Part shown: positions 1,118-10,487 of the stretch, in pieces
How the letters are laid out: every line of letters starts with the position of its first letter
How positions within the stretch are numbered: position 1 is the stretch's first letter
Assembly (NCBI GenBank): GCA_934646865.1
Contig: CAKUEU010000044.1
Span: 1-14,260, forward strand
Source: an uncultured Collinsella sp.
GTDB lineage: Bacteria; Actinomycetota; Coriobacteriia; Coriobacteriales; Coriobacteriaceae
Length of the DNA: 14,260 nucleotides
Direction: 5' to 3'
The notes under the pieces: model-generated
What the model was told of the DNA's origin: nothing
The model's database searches: none
What the model saw: only the letters and a program-made list of their open reading frames with translations
Made by a program: the position numbers and the translations under genes

Positions 1118-1150
1118 AAAAAAGGACCCGCAACTTGCGGGTCCTTTTTT
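1118..1150. terminator. Bidirectional intrinsic terminator
   Basis: A 9-bp GC-rich stem (GGACCCGCA at 1124-1132 with TGCGGGTCC at 1136-1144) has a three-base loop. It is flanked by A6 (1118-1123) and T6 (1145-1150), so the structure works on both strands. It lies 18 bases after the nitroreductase stop and 20 bases after the divIVA stop, and so separates two convergent transcription units. Confidence 0.95.
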
Positions 1151-1170: not shown

Positions 1171-1845
1171 TTAGTCCAAGTCGTCGGCGGCAAAGTTGTC
1201 GATCGGGGCGAAGGGATCGGCCACGGGGACAACCGGGTCAGCGACGGGCAGCGGCTCGGCGGGAACAGTCACCGCAGGAGAAGCGGCAGAACCGACCGGC
1301 GTGGAGGCCATGAGGTCGGCAGGGAAGGAGTTCTGGGCATCATCCATGAAGTGCTGGATGAGCTTGAGGTACTCGGCCTTGAACTCCTCGCGGGAAGCCT
1401 TGAGACGATCGATTTCCTCGAGCTCGGCCTGCTTCTCGGTCAGAGCCTGGCGGATAACCTCGCGGGCCTTAGCGTCAGCCTCGTTGCGGATACGCTCAGC
1501 GTTCTCGTTGGCATCGTTGACGATGTTCTCAGCGGTCCGCTGGGCGGCAATCAGGGCGGCGGAAATCTGGCGCTCCTGAGCGGAGAAGTCAGGGGCGGGA
1601 GCAGCCACGGGGGCGGCAGGAACGGCCTGGGCGGTGGCATCCTGAGCTTGGGCAAGCTGAGCCTGCGCATCGGCAAGCTGCTGCTCGGTAGCAGTCAGAC
1701 GACCCTTAAGGTCGACGATCTTAGCGAGCATAGCGTCAACCTCGGAGGACAGCGTCTCCAAGAAGACGTCGACCTCAGCAGGATCGTAGCCACGCTTGGC
1801 CTCAGAGAAAGTCTGAGCCTGGATGTCTGCAGGGGTAATAGCCAT
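1171..1845 (-). CDS. divIVA: DivIVA-family polar/septal scaffold protein
   Basis: This 224-residue protein begins with the DivIVA lipid-binding domain (residues 1-65, with ITPADIQAQTF and RGYDPAEVDVFLETL). An Ala/Pro/Gln-rich linker follows at about 66-87, then a long coiled coil (about 88-172, with AENIVNDANENAERIRNEAD) and a Pro/Asp-rich tail ending DDLD. DivIVA assembles on negatively curved membrane at septa and poles. In actinobacteria it organises polar or septal wall growth and recruits partners through the coiled coil. AAGGAGA lies six bases before the ATG. It is the last gene of the minus-strand series, about 60 bases after yggT, and ends at the shared terminator. The tail differs in length among relatives, so interactions cannot be predicted. 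Confidence 0.95.
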   Translation of the reverse strand: MAITPADIQAQTFSEAKRGYDPAEVDVFLETLSSEVDAMLAKIVDLKGRLTATEQQLADAQAQLAQAQDATAQAVPAAPVAAPAPDFSAQERQISAALIAAQRTAENIVNDANENAERIRNEADAKAREVIRQALTEKQAELEEIDRLKASREEFKAEYLKLIQHFMDDAQNSFPADLMASTPVGSAASPAVTVPAEPLPVADPVVPVADPFAPIDNFAADDLD

Positions 1846-1906: not shown

Positions 1907-2188
1907 CTACACGAGTATACCTATAAGAAGCTGCAGAACCAGCCTCTGCACCAACTGCAACGCAATAATCGCAACGACCGGCGAAAAATCGATACCGCCC
2001 ATCGGCGGGATGAAACGACGGAACAGGTTGAGCCACGGACCGCACACGCTATCAAGCACCGCGGCAATATCCTGAAGCAAACCACCCTGCTTCATGGGAA
2101 TCCACGTCATAAAGCAGTAGACGACAATGAGCGTGGAATAGAAGTTGAACAGCGTGTTGACCAGCTGGACGATAGTGTAGATGTTGAT
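1907..2188 (-). CDS. yggT: YggT-family small membrane protein with non-canonical start
   Basis: The protein is about 93 residues with a YggT layout: a first hydrophobic segment (about residues 4-26, IYTIVQLVNTLFNFYSTL and onward), a short loop containing TWIPM, the family-typical stretch CGPWLNLFRRFIPPMGGIDFSP, and a final hydrophobic helix. YggT/YlmG proteins sit beside sepF and are linked to division or membrane organisation; their biochemical role is not settled. The start is the problem. No ATG, GTG or TTG precedes the first membrane helix. The first in-frame ATG (2108-2110) would delete that helix and has no ribosome site. GAGGAG (2195-2200) is well placed for ATC at 2186-2188, six bases away, and abuts ATT at 2192-2194. 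I chose ATC. The frame is open back to the sepF stop, in the same frame. Confidence 0.82.
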   Translation of the reverse strand: MNIYTIVQLVNTLFNFYSTLIVVYCFMTWIPMKQGGLLQDIAAVLDSVCGPWLNLFRRFIPPMGGIDFSPVVAIIALQLVQRLVLQLLIGILV

Positions 2189-2194
2189 GGGAAT

Positions 2195-2209: not shown

Positions 2210-2932
2210 TTACTTAAGGTAGCCGTCCGCACGAAGCTTCTTGAGATCGGAATCTTTGACCTCGCAACCGGCGGGCAGCACCATGAACACGCGGTCGCCT
2301 ACCTCCTTGACCGTGGCGCCCAGACCGCAGGCAAAGCCGTAAGAGAAGTCCAAGACGCGCTTGGCAACTTCGGTGCGTACGCCCACAAAAATCAGTGCGA
2401 CAGGCTGCTTGGTGCGAACGCGGCGCACCACAGTCTCCACGTCGTCATAGCTCTCGGGGCGCAGAACATAAGCCGGCAGCTGCGGCGTGGCGTTGATGAT
2501 ATTGCTCGCATAGGCCGAGGCGTCGCTCGGTGCAGGCGCGGGCGCAGCGGCGGCACGGGCGCGGGTGTTCTCGGCGTAACTCGACGGCGTGTCATAGGCA
2601 CCAGGGCGATAACCGCTCGCAACGCTGTCCTGCGAGCGCGAAGGCGGGTTATACGTCGTGGCATGGCGGGAGTCATCGCCGACAAGCTGACCGGAGCGCG
2701 TATACACGGCAACCGACTCAGCTTCACCACGGCGCGTCTGACCAAGCAGGCCGTTGCTCGGCTCGTCTTGGGTGTAGAAGCCCTCGCCCGAAGCACCGCT
2801 GTAGCCGTTGCCCTGATAACCATCGTCATAGCCGTCATCGTAGCCGTAGTCGTCGTCCTGGCCATAACCCTGGTCGTAACCCTGCTGGCCGCCCAGGTGC
2901 ATCTTATTTTTAATCTCGTCAAGGAAGCCCAT
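2210..2932 (-). CDS. sepF: SepF, FtsZ membrane anchor and cell-division factor
   Basis: The protein has 240 residues. The N-terminus MGFLDEIKNKMHLGG is the amphipathic helix that binds membrane. A long disordered linker follows (about 16-150), starting with a Tyr/Gly/Asp-rich stretch (18-44, seven tyrosines) and ending in an Ala/Pro run. The SepF core is at about 153-225 (YVLRPESYDDVETVVRRV and PVALIFVGV). SepF polymerises under the Z-ring and binds the FtsZ C-terminal peptide. In actinobacteria lacking FtsA it is the main anchor, which fits the missing ftsA here. The ATG at 2930-2932 has GAGAGGA seven bases upstream; a longer frame to 2983 adds 17 residues that do not look like SepF. It lies 60 bases after yggS and 21 bases before the probable yggT start. 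The linker is long and unusually tyrosine-rich. Confidence 0.93.
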   Translation of the reverse strand: MGFLDEIKNKMHLGGQQGYDQGYGQDDDYGYDDGYDDGYQGNGYSGASGEGFYTQDEPSNGLLGQTRRGEAESVAVYTRSGQLVGDDSRHATTYNPPSRSQDSVASGYRPGAYDTPSSYAENTRARAAAAPAPAPSDASAYASNIINATPQLPAYVLRPESYDDVETVVRRVRTKQPVALIFVGVRTEVAKRVLDFSYGFACGLGATVKEVGDRVFMVLPAGCEVKDSDLKKLRADGYLK

Positions 2933-3730: not shown

Positions 3731-3782
3731 TGCTAATCGCCTCCGCTGACAGCCAAACAAGTAGTCCCATGCTAACGCAAGA

Positions 3783-3810
3783 GCGCGGCCCTGCATGTGC
3801 AAGGCCGCGC
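3783..3810 (-). terminator. GC-rich hairpin between phoU and yggS, possible weak terminator
   Basis: The arms GCGCGGCC (3783-3790) and GGCCGCGC (3803-3810) form a perfect 8-bp stem with a 12-nt loop, 39 bases after the phoU stop. Only a short pyrimidine stretch (CTCTTGCGTT) follows on the minus strand, so termination is probably partial at best. It marks the boundary between the pst-phoU block and the yggS-sepF-yggT-divIVA block. It could instead be a 3'-end stabilising stem. Confidence 0.45.
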
Positions 3811-3849
3811 CCACTTAGGTATTTACAATCTTTCGACGAACGGGGCTAC

Positions 3850-4707
3850 TTACTCCTCGTCGTCCTCGCCATCGTCCTCGTCCTCAAGATGATCGAGCAG
3901 GTAGCGAAGACCCTCGCTGACCTCGTTGGCGGGCACCTTGGCAACGTAGCGCGCGTCGACGGCGGGCCTCATGATAACACCCTCGCCCGAAGGCACGCGC
4001 ATGCTCTCGAGCTCATCCTCATCAGTGCGGGCAATATCGCCGGCGTTCATACGCTGACCAGTCAACAGGAAGGTCAGACGGCAAGCGGCATCGATGGAAA
4101 TCGAAGCGATGCGATCGAGGTAGCGCGAAACCATGATGGCGCGGCGCAGGTCGTCATAGTTGCTATCGTCGTCCATAAAGTCGCCCGTATCCATACGGTT
4201 AAAGGTGCGGAAGAACTTCTCGTAGGCGGCGTGCACCGGCTCGTCCTCGACGGCCAGGTTGCAGATGATGGACATGTCATTGGTGACGAGCGCAGAAAGC
4301 GAAGAGCCCAGCACCTGGTAGACGGCCTCAGCCTCGGCCTCGACCGTGCCGACAAGCTCCTTGGGCAGCGAGATGTCGGCCTTGATCATATGACGCGTGG
4401 CACGGCAGATCTGACGGACCTTATCGGTCATGCGCTGCAGGTTAAAGTCGACGTAGATGATCGTCTGAAGCAGGCGGAAGTCGGAGGCGACCGGTGACTG
4501 CGTGGCGATCAGGTTATAGCAGACGGCCTCCAGGTTGGCGCAGCGCGCGTCAATCGAAAGCGTGCGCTTCTTGGTCTTGGTGGCGAGCTTGCGGTCGTCG
4601 GTCACATAGGCCTTCACGGCATCGTGGAGGGCCAGATCGACGGCCTCATAGATGCTCAGCATCTCGTGACGGGCCTCGATGAGCTGACGGGAAAACAGTT
4701 TGCGCAT
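3850..4707 (-). CDS. phoU: PhoU-type phosphate signalling protein with acidic C-terminal extension
   Basis: This 285-residue all-helical cytoplasmic protein has two three-helix PhoU repeats over about residues 1-220. In known systems PhoU bridges PstSCAB and the PhoR kinase and keeps the Pho response off when phosphate is plentiful. Two features differ from typical PhoU. The metal-cluster motifs, usually ExxxD as in LERIGD, read LQRMTD (90-95) and LDRIAS (197-202), so one position of each is changed. An extra C-terminal stretch of about 65 residues ends in LEDEDDGEDDEE. GGAG lies six bases before the ATG. Position just after pstB agrees with the assignment. A 92-base gap with two small hairpins precedes it, so it may be expressed at a different level from the transporter genes. 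Confidence 0.92.
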   Translation of the reverse strand: MRKLFSRQLIEARHEMLSIYEAVDLALHDAVKAYVTDDRKLATKTKKRTLSIDARCANLEAVCYNLIATQSPVASDFRLLQTIIYVDFNLQRMTDKVRQICRATRHMIKADISLPKELVGTVEAEAEAVYQVLGSSLSALVTNDMSIICNLAVEDEPVHAAYEKFFRTFNRMDTGDFMDDDSNYDDLRRAIMVSRYLDRIASISIDAACRLTFLLTGQRMNAGDIARTDEDELESMRVPSGEGVIMRPAVDARYVAKVPANEVSEGLRYLLDHLEDEDDGEDDEE

Positions 4708-4727
4708 GGTTCACTCCAATCAGTTGG

Positions 4728-4774
4728 GTGCGGTCATGCCGCCCGCACAGTGAATACGCACCGGACCAGGTCCG
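4728..4774 (-). other. Two small hairpins in the pstB-phoU gap
   Basis: GTGCGG (4728-4733) pairs with CCGCAC (4743-4748). CGGACCAGGTCCG (4762-4774) is a perfect stem around a tiny loop. Both lie in the 92-base gap between the pstB stop and phoU. Neither has a following T-run on the minus strand, so they are more likely mRNA processing or stability elements than terminators. Their biological relevance is uncertain. Confidence 0.3.
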
Positions 4775-4799
4775 ATCGGCTTGGGACTAGTCGCACCGA

Positions 4800-5603
<804 letters not shown>

Positions 5604-5615
5604 GGGACTCCTTAA

Positions 5616-6521
5616 CTAGCGACGCTTGCGCGACAGGAAGCGCGCAAACAGGTTGAAGGCCAGAATGATCACCATCAGCAAGAGCGCGGTGCCGTAGGCT
5701 GCGTTCATGTTGATGCCGTCGTTTGCAAGCAGGTACAGGTGAACCGTCATGGGGCGGCCGGAATCGAGCGGCGAAATAGGTAGATTGATGGCCTGGCCCA
5801 TCGTATAGAGCACGACGGCGGTCTCGCCGATGGCGCGGCCGATGGCAAGCACGATGCCCGTGGCAATACGGCCAAAGGCAGAAGGAAGCACGATCTTGGA
5901 GACGACCTGCCACTTGGTGGCGCCCAGGCCGTACGCGCCCCAACGGATATAGCGCGGAACGGCGCGAATGGCCTCTTCGGTGGTGCGCATGACGATGGGA
6001 AGCATCAAGAGCGCGAGTGCCAGAGCGGCCGAGACCATCGAAAGGCCCAGACCCATGGCCTCGACAAACAAGGCGTAGCCAAACAGGCCCATAACGATAG
6101 AGGGCACCGAGGCCAAAGCGTCAGCAGCGTAGCGAATGAGCTCGACGACCTTGCCCTGCTTGGCGTACTCGGCCAGATAGACGGCTGCCAGCACAGCAAT
6201 CGGCGTGCAGATAAGCATGGCGAGCGCCGTCACATAGACGGTCGAGACGATCGTGGGCCAAATTCCACCCTCGGCGTTGACGCCCTGGGGCCAACCGAAG
6301 ATAAAGTCGAGCGAGATATGCGGCAGGCCGTTAATGACCACATATGCGATGATAGCGACCAGCACCAGCGTGGTGATATAGGCAGCCGCGCGGAATACGC
6401 CGAGCATGATCTTGTTGGACAAGTCCTTGTTGATGCGGCCCTTCTTGCCGTGGGAAAGGGCACGCTTGATGCGCTCGCGCGACGAGGTCGTATCGACCGT
6501 CGCGTCAACGGAATCGGACAT
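5616..6521 (-). CDS. pstA: Phosphate ABC transporter permease PstA
   Basis: This 301-residue inner-membrane protein pairs with PstC to form the phosphate channel. An N-terminal cytoplasmic stretch of about 35 residues, basic in its second half, precedes the first helix (about 40-64). The periplasm-facing loop has PHISLDFIFGWPQG. Further hydrophobic helices follow. The EAA coupling loop, YGLGATKWQVVSKIVLPSA (197-215), contacts PstB. The stretch AIGRAIGETAVVLYTMG after it is also family-typical. The ATG (6519-6521) has GAGGGGG six bases upstream; this ribosome site overlaps the end of pstC, whose stop is three bases away. PstA rather than PstC is chosen from the GLPHISLDF loop and from gene order. 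Confidence 0.96.
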   Translation of the reverse strand: MSDSVDATVDTTSSRERIKRALSHGKKGRINKDLSNKIMLGVFRAAAYITTLVLVAIIAYVVINGLPHISLDFIFGWPQGVNAEGGIWPTIVSTVYVTALAMLICTPIAVLAAVYLAEYAKQGKVVELIRYAADALASVPSIVMGLFGYALFVEAMGLGLSMVSAALALALLMLPIVMRTTEEAIRAVPRYIRWGAYGLGATKWQVVSKIVLPSAFGRIATGIVLAIGRAIGETAVVLYTMGQAINLPISPLDSGRPMTVHLYLLANDGINMNAAYGTALLLMVIILAFNLFARFLSRKRR

Positions 6522-6524
6522 AGC

Positions 6525-7451
6525 CTACCCCCTCTTTTTCTTGGAAATCAGACGGACGACGCCCACCAGCGTGGCGGAGATGATAAACAGGACCACGCCC
6601 ATGCCGAACAGCGCCGAGCGGTGCAGACCCGAGGAATAGCTCATGTCGAGCGCGATCTGGCTCGTGAGCGTCGAGATGGGGCTCGCAATGCTGTCGGGAA
6701 TAACCGGGGCGTTACCCACGACCATGAGCACGGCCATGGTCTCGCCGATGGCACGGCCCATACCCAGCACGATGGCATCCACGATACCCAGCTTGGCGGC
6801 AGGTAGCACGACCTTATAGATGGTCTGCCACTTGGTGGCGCCCATGGCATACGATGCCTCGCGAATGCCCATGGGAATGGAATTGAGGGCATCGATGGTG
6901 AGCGTGGTGATGGTAGGGACGATCATGATGGCAAGCACGAACCACGCCGTCAGCGCACCAAAACCAAGACCACCGGTCACCTGCGCGATAAACGGACGGA
7001 TGATGATCATGCCAAAGAAGCCATAGATGATAGAAGGGATGCCGGCCAACAGGTCAACGGCAGGGCTGATGAGCTTGCGTACGCGCTTGCCGGCGATCTC
7101 GACCAGATACACAGCCGTGCCCACGCCCAGGGGCACACCCATGGCGAGCGCACCGACGGTCACCAGACCCGAGCCGGCAAGCAGCGACACGATGCCGTAG
7201 TGGCCCTCAGAGGGCGCCCACGTAAAGCTAAAGAAATCTGCCAGACCGATGTCGGTAAAGACGGGCAGCGCCGAGTACGTGGTAAAGACAAAAATCAGGA
7301 TGACGGTAACAACCGCCAAGAACGCGCAGGCAAAGAAGATCCACTGCAGCGCCTTCTCCTTGATATAGGTGCTGCGCGATACGAGCGCCAGCTCGCGCTT
7401 CTTGGGCGCCTGACCATTCTGCTCAGTCTGGGAGTTTTCCTGTGCTTCCAT
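6525..7451 (-). CDS. pstC: Phosphate ABC transporter permease PstC
   Basis: This membrane permease of 308 residues forms the phosphate channel with PstA. A polar N-terminal tail of about 35 residues leads into helix 1 (about 36-62). The family motif FTWAPSEGHYGIVSLLAGS (76-94) follows. The EAA loop EASYAMGATKWQTIYKVVLP (198-217) and MGRAIGETMAVLMVVGNAP close to it mark PstC. An in-frame GTG three codons upstream would overlap pstS by eight bases. I prefer the ATG at 7449-7451 because AGGGGAG lies eight bases before it, against one base or less before the GTG. With this start the gene begins one base after the pstS stop (TAG-C-ATG), so translation is probably coupled. Confidence 0.96.
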   Translation of the reverse strand: MEAQENSQTEQNGQAPKKRELALVSRSTYIKEKALQWIFFACAFLAVVTVILIFVFTTYSALPVFTDIGLADFFSFTWAPSEGHYGIVSLLAGSGLVTVGALAMGVPLGVGTAVYLVEIAGKRVRKLISPAVDLLAGIPSIIYGFFGMIIIRPFIAQVTGGLGFGALTAWFVLAIMIVPTITTLTIDALNSIPMGIREASYAMGATKWQTIYKVVLPAAKLGIVDAIVLGMGRAIGETMAVLMVVGNAPVIPDSIASPISTLTSQIALDMSYSSGLHRSALFGMGVVLFIISATLVGVVRLISKKKRG

Positions 7452-7452
7452 G

Positions 7453-8289
7453 CTACTCACTCCCCTTCTCGTCGTTGGTGACGGGAATAAAGCCCGCCTC
7501 GCGAATCTGCTTGTCCATCTTTTCGGACGTCACGTAGTCGATGTAATCTTGCGCCTGCTGCGAAGGTGCACCCTTCACAAAGAAGTAAAGGTCGCGCGAG
7601 ATGGGATAGCCGCCGCTCGCGACCGTCTTCTCGGACGCCTCAACATGATTGACCGAGACGGCCTTGACCGAGGTCTTGGCGTTGAGGCTATCGACGAAGC
7701 CCAGCGAAATGTAGCCGATGGCACCGCGCGAACGAGATACCACGTCGCGCACCTGGCCCGTGCCCGAAAGAACGGCGGACCGGCGATCGAACGGGGTGCC
7801 GTCCATCACGATGGTGCGGAAGGCCTCACGCGTGCCAGACGCCTCGTCTCGGTTGATGACCTGGATCTTCAGGTCCTCTCCGCCGACTTCCTTCCAGTTG
7901 GTGATCTTACCGGCGTAAATATCGCGGAGCTGCTCGGTCGAGAGGTTATCGACGGGGTTATCGTCGTTCACGATGACCGCGATACCGTCGTGGGCAATGA
8001 CGATGGGAGTCAGGCCCAGATTCTGTTCGTCGGCATTGAGTCCACGGGAGGAGCTGGCGATATCGGCCGTGCCAGCGCTGACGGCTTCGATGCCAGCGGA
8101 AGAGCCCAAACCAGAGACGAGCACGTCGATGCCGGTCTCCTCCTTAAAGCCCTCTGCCGCAATCTCGGCGATAGGAAGACAGGTCGTGGAGCCGGCCACG
8201 GTAATGGAAGAGGTAGAAGATCCCGAAGAACAGGCGCACAGCGTAAGCGTAAGCACAGCGGCGCTCAGGACCGATACGATCTTTCTCAT
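7453..8289 (-). CDS. pstS: Phosphate-binding lipoprotein PstS
   Basis: This 278-residue substrate-binding protein captures phosphate outside the membrane and delivers it to PstC-PstA. The N-terminus is a lipoprotein signal: MRKIV, a hydrophobic core, and lipobox LCAC with the lipidated cysteine at residue 20, then a Ser/Gly linker. Ligand-site motifs are AGSTTCLPIAE (32-42), GLGSSAGIEAV (60-70), ASSSRGL (78-84) and RDEASGTRE (147-155). YFFVKG and FIPV near the end fit the family. The start codon overlaps the pgeF stop in an ATGA (8286-8289), and no good ribosome site precedes it, so translation probably depends on ribosomes finishing pgeF. No separate pstS promoter is visible in the overlap. 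Confidence 0.96.
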   Translation of the reverse strand: MRKIVSVLSAAVLTLTLCACSSGSSTSSITVAGSTTCLPIAEIAAEGFKEETGIDVLVSGLGSSAGIEAVSAGTADIASSSRGLNADEQNLGLTPIVIAHDGIAVIVNDDNPVDNLSTEQLRDIYAGKITNWKEVGGEDLKIQVINRDEASGTREAFRTIVMDGTPFDRRSAVLSGTGQVRDVVSRSRGAIGYISLGFVDSLNAKTSVKAVSVNHVEASEKTVASGGYPISRDLYFFVKGAPSQQAQDYIDYVTSEKMDKQIREAGFIPVTNDEKGSE

Positions 8290-9086
8290 AGCATCACGCC
8301 GATCGCAGCATGGCGCCCACAGGTGCCGTCCTCGTTACGGTAGGAATAAAAGCGGTCGTTCTGACGCACAGTCGAAAGCTGGGTATCCACGATATTATCC
8401 GCGTCCACACCGATATCTACCAGCGCCTCACGAATGGCGGCAGATAGATCAAGCATGCGAGAAGCGCCCGCATCGATGCACGAAAACTCGGCGGCAAAGC
8501 GGTCCATGAGTTCCTGGGATACCTCATATTCGTCAGCCAAGATATGGGGGCCGATATAGGCGGAAACGTCGCTCGCATCGCAGCCGGCAGCATCGCAAAG
8601 CACCCGGCACGCCTTGGCAGAAATACGTGTAATCGTGCCCTTCCAACCGGAGTGCACCACGGCAAATCCGCCGGGGGCCACCAGCACCACGGGAACGCAG
8701 TCAGCAAAGCAGAGAAGCACGGGCACGTCATGGGCCGTACAGACGATGGCATCGCAACCCTCGGCAATCTGCTCGCGAACAGCCTCAAGATCGTCGGCGC
8801 CGTTCGAAGTCACCGTAACGATATGGTCACCATGTACCTGATTGGGCACGAGCAGATTATGCTCGCACTCAGTGGCGCCCATAGCTTCGAGCGCTCGACG
8901 ACGATTTTCTTGAACAGCAAAGGGGTCATCGCCTACATGCGAGCCCAGGTTGAGCGAGGAGTACGCGTCTTCAGAAACGCCACCGGTGCGCTCGGTAAAG
9001 GCAAAGCGAACATCGGATGTCGCGCCCTCCACCAACGTAACTCCATCATGGTCGACACGCGAAACGTTGTCCGCACGTGCTGCCAT
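8286..9086 (-). CDS. pgeF: PgeF/YfiH/YlmD laccase-domain protein (purine nucleoside phosphorylase family)
   Basis: This 266-residue protein has the Cu-oxidase_4 fold once called polyphenol oxidase. The metal-site triad is seen as His85 in NQVHGD, Cys130 in ADCVPVVLV and His145 in VVHSGWKGT. Characterised members have zinc-dependent purine nucleoside phosphorylase and adenosine deaminase activities; E. coli PgeF is linked to peptidoglycan quality control. Which role applies here is not readable. The ATG at 9084-9086 has AGGAGG seven bases upstream; the open frame continues 35 residues further but looks non-coding there. It follows ftsZ, the usual ylmD position, and is the first gene of an apparent pgeF-pstSCAB-phoU transcription unit, with pstS overlapping its stop. 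Confidence 0.93.
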   Translation of the reverse strand: MAARADNVSRVDHDGVTLVEGATSDVRFAFTERTGGVSEDAYSSLNLGSHVGDDPFAVQENRRRALEAMGATECEHNLLVPNQVHGDHIVTVTSNGADDLEAVREQIAEGCDAIVCTAHDVPVLLCFADCVPVVLVAPGGFAVVHSGWKGTITRISAKACRVLCDAAGCDASDVSAYIGPHILADEYEVSQELMDRFAAEFSCIDAGASRMLDLSAAIREALVDIGVDADNIVDTQLSTVRQNDRFYSYRNEDGTCGRHAAIGVML

Positions 9087-9165
9087 ACTAAAGCCTCCTA
9101 ATAACACAAGTACCGCGGCATCGCCGCTACAGCCAGCGTTTATACGGCTGTCATACTTCCTTAAA

Positions 9166-9210
9166 AGGATACCCGCAGCGGTAGGGACCAAACGTAAAGG
9201 GAACGTAAGG
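9166..9210 (-). promoter_or_regulatory. Candidate PhoP box and promoter of the pgeF-pst operon
   Basis: On the minus strand the motif TTACGTT occurs twice, at 9202-9208 and 9191-9197, exactly 11 bases apart. Direct repeats on an 11-bp step are the hallmark of OmpR-family response-regulator sites such as Pho boxes. It lies between the ftsZ terminator and pgeF. A weak -10-like TATCCT (9166-9171) is 19 bases downstream; TATAAA at 9139-9144 is another option. Regulation by phosphate is inferred from the repeats and the genes; no regulator gene is in the window. Confidence 0.45.
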
Positions 9211-9239: not shown

Positions 9240-9275
9240 AACAAAACGGGGTGCATCCAAATGGACACACCCCGT
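9240..9275 (-). terminator. Intrinsic terminator after ftsZ
   Basis: On the minus strand, ACGGGGTG (9268-9275) pairs with CACCCCGT (9246-9253). An interior mismatch, three more pairs and a four-base loop close it, and the U-rich run TTTTGTTTCT follows. It begins 22 bases after the ftsZ stop and separates ftsZ transcription from pgeF-pst. Confidence 0.82.
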
Positions 9276-9297: not shown

Positions 9298-10452
9298 CTA
9301 GAAGCTACCGCGCTTCAGGAAGTCGGGAAGCTCGAACTGGTCGTTGCCAAAGTTGGGCAGCTCGGTACCACCGACGTTGCGGGTCGGAGCGGCCTGAGCC
9401 GGGCTGGCAGCCGGAGCGGTGCGCTGCGGCTCAGCGGAGGCAGCGGCCTTGCTCTGAGACTGCTGAGCAGCAAAGAGCTCGTCCTGACGGTTGACGTTGG
9501 AATCGGAGAAGCCCGTAGCGATGACGGTGATACGCACCTGATCGCCCAGGGACTCGTCGACAACGGTACCGAAGATGATGTTCGCCTCGGGGTCGACGGC
9601 GTTGGCGACAACGTCGGCGGCGTCGCTGATCTCCTGGATGCCCAGGTCCTTGGAACCAGCGATGGAGAGCAGCACGCGCGTGGCACCATCGATGGAGCTC
9701 TCGAGCAGCGGGCTGGAGATGGCCTGCTGGGCAGCGTCGACGGCACGGGTGTCCCCAGAGGAGGTACCGATGCCCATCATGGCGGTACCGGCCTGCTTCA
9801 TGATGGTCTTAACATCGGCGAAGTCCAGGTTGATGATACCGGGGACGGTGATGAGGTCGGTGATACCCTGGGTGCCCTGGGAGAGGACGCCATCGGCAAT
9901 CGCGAAGGCCTCGAGCATGGTGGTCTTCTTCTCGGCGATGTCGAGCAGCTTGTCGTTAGGGATAACGATCATGGTGTCAACGCAATCGGAGAGGGTCTTG
10001 ATGCCCTCCTCGGCGCTCTTCTTGCGCTTGCGGCCCTCGAAGGTGAAGGGCTTGGTCACGACGGCGACGGTCAGCGCGCCGACCTCGTTCATCGCGATAT
10101 CGGCAACGATGGGAGCGGCGCCGGTACCGGTGCCACCGCCCTCGCCACAGGTGATGAACACCATGTCGGCGCCAGCGAGCGCCTCGGCGATGTCGTCGCG
10201 GGACTCATCGGCAGCCTTGCGGCCAACCTCGGGGTTGGCGCCGGCGCCCAGGCCGCGGGTAAGGTCGGTGCCGATGTGCACCTTGATATCGGCATCAGAG
10301 ATCGCGAGTGCCTGAGCATCGGTGTTGATGGCGACAAACTCGACGCCGCGGATGCCCTCTTCGATCATTCGATTGACCGCGTTGGTACCGCCGCCGCCGA
10401 CGCCGACCACCTTAATGACGGCAAGGTAGTTGTTGATCTCTGTCTCGTGCAT
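9298..10452 (-). CDS. ftsZ: Cell-division tubulin homologue FtsZ
   Basis: This 384-residue GTPase polymerises into the Z-ring. Seen features are the N-terminal GTP-binding segment [16 protein letters not shown] (15-30), the tubulin signature GGGTGTG (105-111), and the T7 loop NLDFADVKT (208-216), whose aspartates complete GTP hydrolysis in the adjoining subunit. A short Ala/Gln-rich linker follows, and the C-terminal peptide [11 protein letters not shown] (374-384) is the expected docking site for SepF. The ATG at 10450-10452 is chosen because GGAGG lies about six bases upstream; a start ten codons earlier is possible but has no well-placed site. ftsZ has its own 199-base AT-rich leader and its own terminator, so it may be transcribed separately as well as from murC-murB-ftsQ. 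Confidence 0.98.
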
Positions 10453-10487
10453 GTCGGTCCTCCGAACAAAGGTTATAGCCATAGCAT

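Follow-up and report, generated by a model that had tools for sequence, protein, structure and literature searches.

Gene content of the cluster

The window analyzed here, the whole 14,260-nucleotide stretch of contig CAKUEU010000044.1 from an uncultured Collinsella sp. (family Coriobacteriaceae), carries the phosphate genes pstS, pstC, pstA, pstB, and phoU inside a cell division cluster, between pgeF (ylmD) and yggS (ylmE). The open reading frame (ORF) list and profile searches gave the minus strand order murC-murB-ftsQ-ftsZ-pgeF-pstS-pstC-pstA-pstB-phoU-yggS-sepF-yggT-divIVA, with all frames open. Five of these we take from their sequence to be ftsZ, ftsQ, murB, murC, and yggT (ylmG), and the window's ftsZ served as a reference for naming genes in other loci by BLAST and hidden Markov models. 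An earlier sequence-only reading of this DNA had given the order pgeF-pstSCAB-phoU-yggS-sepF-yggT-divIVA on one strand, with the genes on either side of the phosphate block intact; the ORFs and family profiles confirmed both. The genes that concern us are as follows.

9298..10482, minus strand: ftsZ, ORF, presumed name
8286..9086, minus strand: pgeF (ylmD), PF02578 above cut-off, start ATG 9086 chosen behind a GGAGG-type site
7453..8289, minus strand: pstS, TIGR02136 250.9 bits (cut-off 206.6)
6525..7460, minus strand: pstC, TIGR02138 272.5 bits (cut-off 196.45)
5616..6521, minus strand: pstA, TIGR00974 277.2 bits (cut-off 193.45)
4800..5603, minus strand: pstB, TIGR00972 377 bits (cut-off 343.2)
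3850..4707, minus strand: phoU, diverged, with an acidic tail, PF01895 above gathering score
2993..3730, minus strand: yggS (ylmE), TIGR00044 142.5 bits, above cut-off
2210..2932, minus strand: sepF, PF04472 above cut-off
1907..2194, minus strand: yggT (ylmG), presumed name
1171..1845, minus strand: divIVA, PF05103 above cut-off

All four Pst transporter subunits (PstS, PstC, PstA, and PstB) scored above curated cut-offs, and judged by family the window's pst is a phosphate ATP-binding cassette (ABC) importer. PgeF reached 218.4 bits with PF02578, above the cut-off, and 125.8 bits with TIGR00726, below the cut-off of 141.15. The pstS ATG lies on the pgeF stop (a 4-bp overlap, ATGA), pstS and pstC overlap by 8 bp, and the following gaps are 3 bp after pstC, 12 bp after pstA, and 92 bp before phoU. 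Starts were preferred from their ribosome-site context (pgeF 9086 instead of 9191, yggS 3730 instead of 3814, and sepF 2932), and the GGAGG-type site before the pgeF start is also present in a relative, L031. In Escherichia coli, pstSCAB-phoU is an operon of five genes. The window has the same five genes in the same order and mostly in tight packing, but it is unlike the E. coli operon in its overlap with a preceding pgeF, its diverged PhoU, and its place in a division cluster, and no convincing Pho box was found for it.

The flanking genes and their order are those of the ftsZ-ylmD-ylmE cluster of Streptomyces and Firmicutes, which PMC5943314 describes as an operon in all Streptomyces genomes analyzed there. 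For Streptomyces, this agrees with the earlier view of pgeF and yggS as usual neighbors. Compared with that cluster, four or five phosphate genes stand here between ylmD (pgeF) and ylmE (yggS). The listings of a full-text search, limited to open-licence papers, named none on phosphate genes in this division cluster.

Distribution in the family and the class

The same order was found in named relatives, namely L139, L142, L143, and L146-L148, which are records of Collinsella aerofaciens and Collinsella sp. Relatives were chosen around genome G001; the genome closest to the window has 56% of the sampled 31-mers in common with it. In a sample of 59 Coriobacteriaceae genomes, 57 of them with yggS, coordinates placed pstS between pgeF and yggS in 26 of the 59. 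A second PstS match lies elsewhere in 25 of these 26, and genome G004 has one only. Family matches make the second pst of Coriobacteriaceae (L051-L069), like that of deep Coriobacteriia (L211-L230), another phosphate ABC importer. The Coriobacteriaceae copy is located elsewhere in the genome, and its PstS shares 29-39% identity with that of the window.

Twenty-one Coriobacteriaceae cluster regions were annotated, and since 20 of them were picked to show both states (L068 being the other), the proportions carry no meaning: nine hold pst-phoU, eight hold phoU alone between pgeF and yggS, and four hold neither. Because phoU stands alone at the site in several relatives without pst, it is the steadier occupant. 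Two of these loci have unusual layouts. In L034 (4134-9602) a phoU stands at each end of pstSCAB, perhaps through tandem duplication or as the trace of a recombination event. In L068 (3863-9256) murC is immediately preceded by the distant pst operon, so that pst stands ahead of a division cluster that also holds a lone phoU.

The class sample comprised 109 Coriobacteriia genomes, 107 of them with YggS, and PhoU was counted by TIGR02135. phoU lies directly upstream of yggS in 77 of the 107: in 54/55 genomes outside Coriobacteriales, in 17/19 Coriobacteriaceae, and in 6/18 and 0/15 genomes of two other Coriobacteriales families, f2 and f3. The sole exception outside Coriobacteriales, G136, has phoU and yggS on different contigs. 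In-cluster pst was counted in 61 of the 107 genomes, from a tally that 70 of them entered with one PstS each, hand-picked near yggS where present (55/55 outside Coriobacteriales, 9/19 Coriobacteriaceae, 6/18 f2, and 0/15 f3); the Coriobacteriaceae and f2 genomes left out of the tally had no PstS near yggS among the matches listed, and some had no PstS at all. Outside Coriobacteriales, pstS is in the cluster in 46/55 genomes, to which G122 (L307) adds pstB-phoU-yggS at a contig start; the contigs of G136 and G141 end before an in-cluster pst could be seen. Six further genomes of this set (L079, L082, L087, L088, L305, and L306) read pgeF-phoU-yggS without pst. Within the order, in-cluster pst was found in 8/19 Coriobacteriaceae and, by pstS, in 5/18 f2 genomes, plus L096 with pstC-pstA-pstB-phoU in place and pstS on another contig. 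All 15 f3 regions were fetched; none has in-cluster pst (0/15), and pgeF is next to yggS in 15/15. The division genes keep their order where the phosphate block is absent.

Some loci also differ in details of the frames. Three Atopobiaceae-type loci of f2 (L091, L092, and L095) have pstC and pstA fused in one frame of 652, 654, and 673 amino acids, respectively. Four Atopobiaceae-type loci have virtually no space between ftsZ and pgeF (gaps of -8 to 8), which resembles the ftsZ/ylmD overlap that PMC5943314 gives for Streptomyces. In 8 of the 11 deep loci measured, 0.7-1.1 kb lie between ftsZ and pgeF. The one ORF scanned from this interval (L071:453-1148) had no Pfam match.

Occurrence beyond the class

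In a phylum sample of 139 genomes, 137 with YggS, coordinates showed phoU directly upstream of yggS in at least nine genomes outside the class. Nineteen yggS regions of this sample were annotated: the whole order is present in L117-L119 (families f34 and f20) and phoU alone in L111-L116 (f35), L126 has a weak PhoU match, and the other nine have neither phoU nor pst.

The sequence-only reading had held that the arrangement would not be unusual if the same order were widespread across unrelated phyla, and this was found in small part only. Among 61 genomes of Bacillota, the phylum of Syntrophomonas zehnderi, phoU lies upstream of yggS-sepF in at least four (L242/L283, L277, L278, and L291), a count that is a lower bound because 30 of the 61 were seen with 1.5-kb flanks only. 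Three of these four also have pstB (not L277), and three have pgeF upstream (not L278). A Desulforudis metagenome-assembled genome (MAG), L282, which was reached separately, reads pgeF, response regulator, PnpS-type kinase, pstSCAB, phoU, HlyD_2-type gene, yggS, sepF, yggT. Its phosphate genes occupy the same interval of the division cluster as in the window; it differs in having two-component genes of its own, and the HlyD_2-type gene between phoU and yggS. One gene stands between phoU and yggS in 4/5 of the Bacillota and Desulforudis loci, and response regulator and kinase genes precede phoU in L277, L282, L283, and L291. In trees, PhoU and PstB of these loci group with other Bacillota, so either a shared ancient origin or separate assembly may lie behind them. 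The Desantisbacteria MAG L201 (748-11238) has a pst-phoU set about 3 kb behind ftsQ-ftsZ.

Phylogenetic history of the linked genes

A PstC scan of named genomes was carried out, the best 80 loci were kept, and a locus was called linked if pgeF or yggS was nearby. Among these best 80 there were 33 linked loci, all with Actinomycetota titles, and 47 unlinked ones, several with short flanks. L163 and L164 (the latter on a 3.4-kb contig) are titled as Coriobacteriia, and the other 45 unlinked loci are titled as other phyla or archaea, except L182, for which none is named. A PstC+PstA tree was built from 67 rows, using proteins of 200 amino acids or more and about half of the unlinked loci. The 34 linked rows and L163 form one group in it, with a Shimodaira-Hasegawa-like approximate likelihood ratio of 100, and the subgroups within this group mostly correspond to host families. 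The PstB and PhoU trees took proteins of at least 150 amino acids. In the former, 19 linked rows lie on one side of a branch with support 100; in the latter, 27 division-cluster Actinomycetota rows and one unlinked row come together with a support of only 86.

When the site's states (pst and phoU, phoU only, or neither) are mapped onto a tree of ftsZ, pgeF, yggS, and sepF, 16 changes are required, compared to a mean of 36.7 when the states were shuffled. The simplest reading of these data is one early origin followed by many losses; quick trees by themselves cannot separate gain from loss.

Putative insulating elements in the window

Four elements of the window bear on how the cluster may be transcribed.

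9246..9275, minus strand: intrinsic terminator after ftsZ, 13-pair stem with a T tail, -24.1 kcal/mol, z -5.40, 0/200 shuffles
3781..3812, minus strand: hairpin between phoU and yggS, likely terminator, -30.5 kcal/mol, z -5.63, 0/200 shuffles
3769..3774, minus strand: -10-like TAGCAT within GCGTTAGCATGG, immediately after the hairpin, likely yggS promoter, from sequence comparison
1118..1144, minus strand: terminator-like hairpin GGACCCGCAAGTTGCGGGTCC with a T run after divIVA, read by eye, not in the terminator list

A strong hairpin between phoU and yggS was found in 16 of the 17 Coriobacteriaceae loci with phoU, the exception being L037; those of L042 and L068 were read from the sequence, the folding script having picked another. 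The hairpin covaries: 10 of its 14 pairs have changed on both sides and 100% of cells are paired in an alignment of the window and 13 loci, whose rows were chosen for the hairpin and leave out L032 and L033 (other shape), L039 (near-copy), and L037 (none strong). Directly behind it, all 14 rows carry the motif GCG-TA--ATG with a -10-like core, in which G, C, G, T, A, A, T, and G are invariant. Of the four loci that lack phoU, two (L043 and L046) retain the -10-like motif and show no strong hairpin, and one (L047) has neither clearly. Taken together, the pgeF-pst-phoU unit in the window looks insulated, that is, transcribed apart from its division-gene neighbors.

Promoter-like and Pho-box-like sites before phoU

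The spacing of phoU and yggS differs between lineages. With starts set by a simple rule, the gap is at most 16 bp or overlapping in 16/16 deep loci and 79-183 bp in 7/7 Coriobacteriaceae loci. In deep loci the pstB-phoU gap is 54-160 bp. Of 31 deep gaps before phoU (27 follow pstB and 4 follow pgeF), 26 carry a promoter-like TATAMT at a distance of 30-80 nt from phoU, compared to a mean of 0.44 and a maximum of 3 in 500 draws of a Markov control. TATAMT is absent before phoU in 8/8 gaps tested from Coriobacteriaceae and f2.

In the second pst operon of 20 deep genomes, a Pho-box-like repeat lies upstream of pstS, and these 20 regions, divergent from a gene that looks by eye like a response regulator (a candidate), were used to train a Pho-box matrix. 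A site above the 99% background was found in 8 of 30 deep phoU gaps, the rows being related, and 22/30 have no such site; 100 column-permuted matrices gave a mean of 0.69 and a maximum of 3. At the same level, sites were found in 0/25 pgeF-pstS gaps and in 2/21 ftsZ-pgeF gaps, a number that permuted matrices also reach (mean 1.17, maximum 4). A test for tandem Pho boxes by autocorrelation of the phoU gaps gave z 1.6 at lag 11, short of significance, and z 1.9 at lag 9. The Pho-box reading was kept because the matrix, coming from other pst operons, provided an independent test.

In the window, two matrices found no convincing Pho box, a negative that is weak because the Coriobacteriaceae matrix slid onto a second repeat in training. 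The best site near pgeF had a region p of about 0.08 (L031) or 0.05 (L038), and in close relatives none turned up around phoU or yggS. The slid matrix gave nominal, uncorrected p values of 0.02-0.05 in a few regions (L038 and L046 before pgeF; L092 before phoU and yggS). A repeat before the window's pgeF, TTACGTTCCCTTTACGTT, is Pho-box-like by eye and is supported by neither matrix.

Divergence of PhoU in Coriobacteriaceae

PhoU of the window scored 53.8 bits with PF01895 (cut-off 23.5) over one stretch, residues 20-103, and 89.9 bits with the full-length equivalog TIGR02135, below the cut-off of 130.25. The ERxxD motifs of PhoU have a metal role, and in the window neither is intact, as they read QRMTD and DRIAS. 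The second motif has lost its final D in 14/14 Coriobacteriaceae rows, with or without pst, and the E of the first is changed in 13/14 (L037 keeps it). In f2, 4/4 rows lack the first motif and keep the second; in deep Coriobacteriia, 11/11 keep both. These changes suggest that Coriobacteriaceae PhoU may have an altered signaling role.

Origin and meaning of the arrangement

The class-wide linkage, the grouping of linked pst in host order, and the scattered absence of pst, often with phoU kept, are supported by these comparisons. The explanation that we favor, with a probability of roughly 0.62, is an old, vertically inherited pstSCAB-phoU module between pgeF and yggS in early-branching Actinomycetota, with a unit that is insulated in the window and was co-transcribed in an ancestor. 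In the window, pgeF-pstSCAB-phoU would form one transcription unit that starts between the ftsZ terminator and pgeF and ends at the hairpin after phoU. yggS-sepF-yggT-divIVA would start from its own promoter just behind the phoU-yggS hairpin and end at the 1144-1118 hairpin. The window's pst would encode an ordinary high-affinity phosphate importer whose expression goes along with that of growth and envelope genes. It would exist beside another, distant pst of the type found in 25 of the 26 family genomes with in-cluster pst. In the ancestor, phoU was probably first in a phoU-yggS-sepF unit with its own promoter before phoU, and because of that position phosphate and division genes may once have been transcribed together.

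Several observations weigh against this explanation. The T run of the phoU-yggS hairpin is poor, so the hairpin may attenuate rather than stop transcription, or it may serve as a DNA operator. In L037 pst-phoU is retained although the hairpin there is not a strong one (-14.6), L050, a locus with no phoU, carries another hairpin (-24.9) upstream of yggS, and in L032 and L033 the -10-like motif lies further on, not directly behind the hairpin. Of the deep phoU-yggS gap lengths, the values -175 and -112 probably come from wrong starts, and startless pairs are missing. All trees came from quick searches, with some long branches and, in some, 18-19 open forks. L163, a Coriobacteriaceae MAG, has its pst inside the linked group, yet its 11.5 kb hold no pgeF or yggS. 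Also, the second Coriobacteriaceae pst is known from genomes of the family, not from the window's own genome.

The idea that pst was recently inserted or relocated between pgeF and yggS in the lineage of the window would agree with the presence of pst in some family genomes only (26/59) and with phoU on both sides of pst in L034. However, it does not fit the trees, in which the linked pst genes follow host order and extend through the class and past it, and phoU stands alone at the site in relatives; we consider it very improbable. The relocation splitting the pgeF/yggS pair in this lineage, as the sequence-only reading had it, is thus unsupported, since the arrangement is class-wide and is shared by three genomes of f34 and f20 beyond the class, and since the trees fit inheritance with repeated pst loss. 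Alternatively, the block may have been assembled once and then kept through inertia and operon economy, phosphate and division being functionally unconnected. The 16 state changes on the cluster tree, the absence of both genes in f3 and in part of f2 and Coriobacteriaceae, the division genes that stay ordered where the block is absent, and the apparent insulation in Coriobacteriaceae would all agree with this. We find such an accident quite unlikely, as phoU-yggS is kept in 54/55 genomes outside Coriobacteriales and some Bacillota have phosphate genes at the matching site.

A working regulatory link, in which PhoU and the Pho regulon set yggS-sepF-divIVA expression by phosphate status in the window and its relatives, is unlikely in our view. 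The position of phoU next to yggS where pst is missing, in six deep genomes and eight Coriobacteriaceae loci, speaks for it, as do the Pho-box-like sites in deep phoU gaps and the response regulator and kinase genes before phoU in L277, L282, L283, and L291. Against it stand the window, with no convincing Pho box and with a hairpin and a likely separate promoter before yggS, the 22/30 deep gaps without a site, the lag-11 result, and the f3 and 12/18 f2 genomes without phoU here. The phosphate-division link that the sequence-only reading raised is not supported in the window, given the flanking terminator-like elements and no convincing Pho box, and it keeps some sequence support in environmental Coriobacteriia. 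A bolder and doubtful version is that in early Actinomycetota PhoU was a true member of the division operon, first of phoU-yggS-sepF-divIVA behind a Pho-box promoter, such that starvation reset the Z-ring and pole genes. A hairpin and a newly gained promoter would later have severed the link in Coriobacteriaceae, and some Bacillota would have converged with a PnpS-PhoU block in the same interval.

In our assessment, the arrangement is real and old and places known gene families in a new setting, and a functional link is a hypothesis. The roles of pgeF, yggS, and PhoU are unsettled, and conservation of their neighborhood is among the better clues to function. With phoU-yggS-sepF present class-wide, apparently insulated and uninsulated versions in related lineages offer a natural comparison for a phosphate input to division.

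Other features of the window

Neither an Rfam scan nor a tRNA search of the window gave a match. The yggT frame has no ATG, GTG, or TTG start (window 2194-2186); ATT 2194 or ATC 2188 is the likely start, behind a GAGGAG-type site, and ATT/ATC-type starts seem to occur also in L031, L036, and L038-L041. Near divIVA, the window carries a DUF47 (PhoU-like) gene at 1-285 on the plus strand, and L031 (12042-13780) also has a PiT phosphate transporter (PF01384). DUF47 and/or PiT transporter genes lie near divIVA, in either orientation, in 17 of the 21 Coriobacteriaceae loci, so phosphate genes are also found on the far side of the division cluster.

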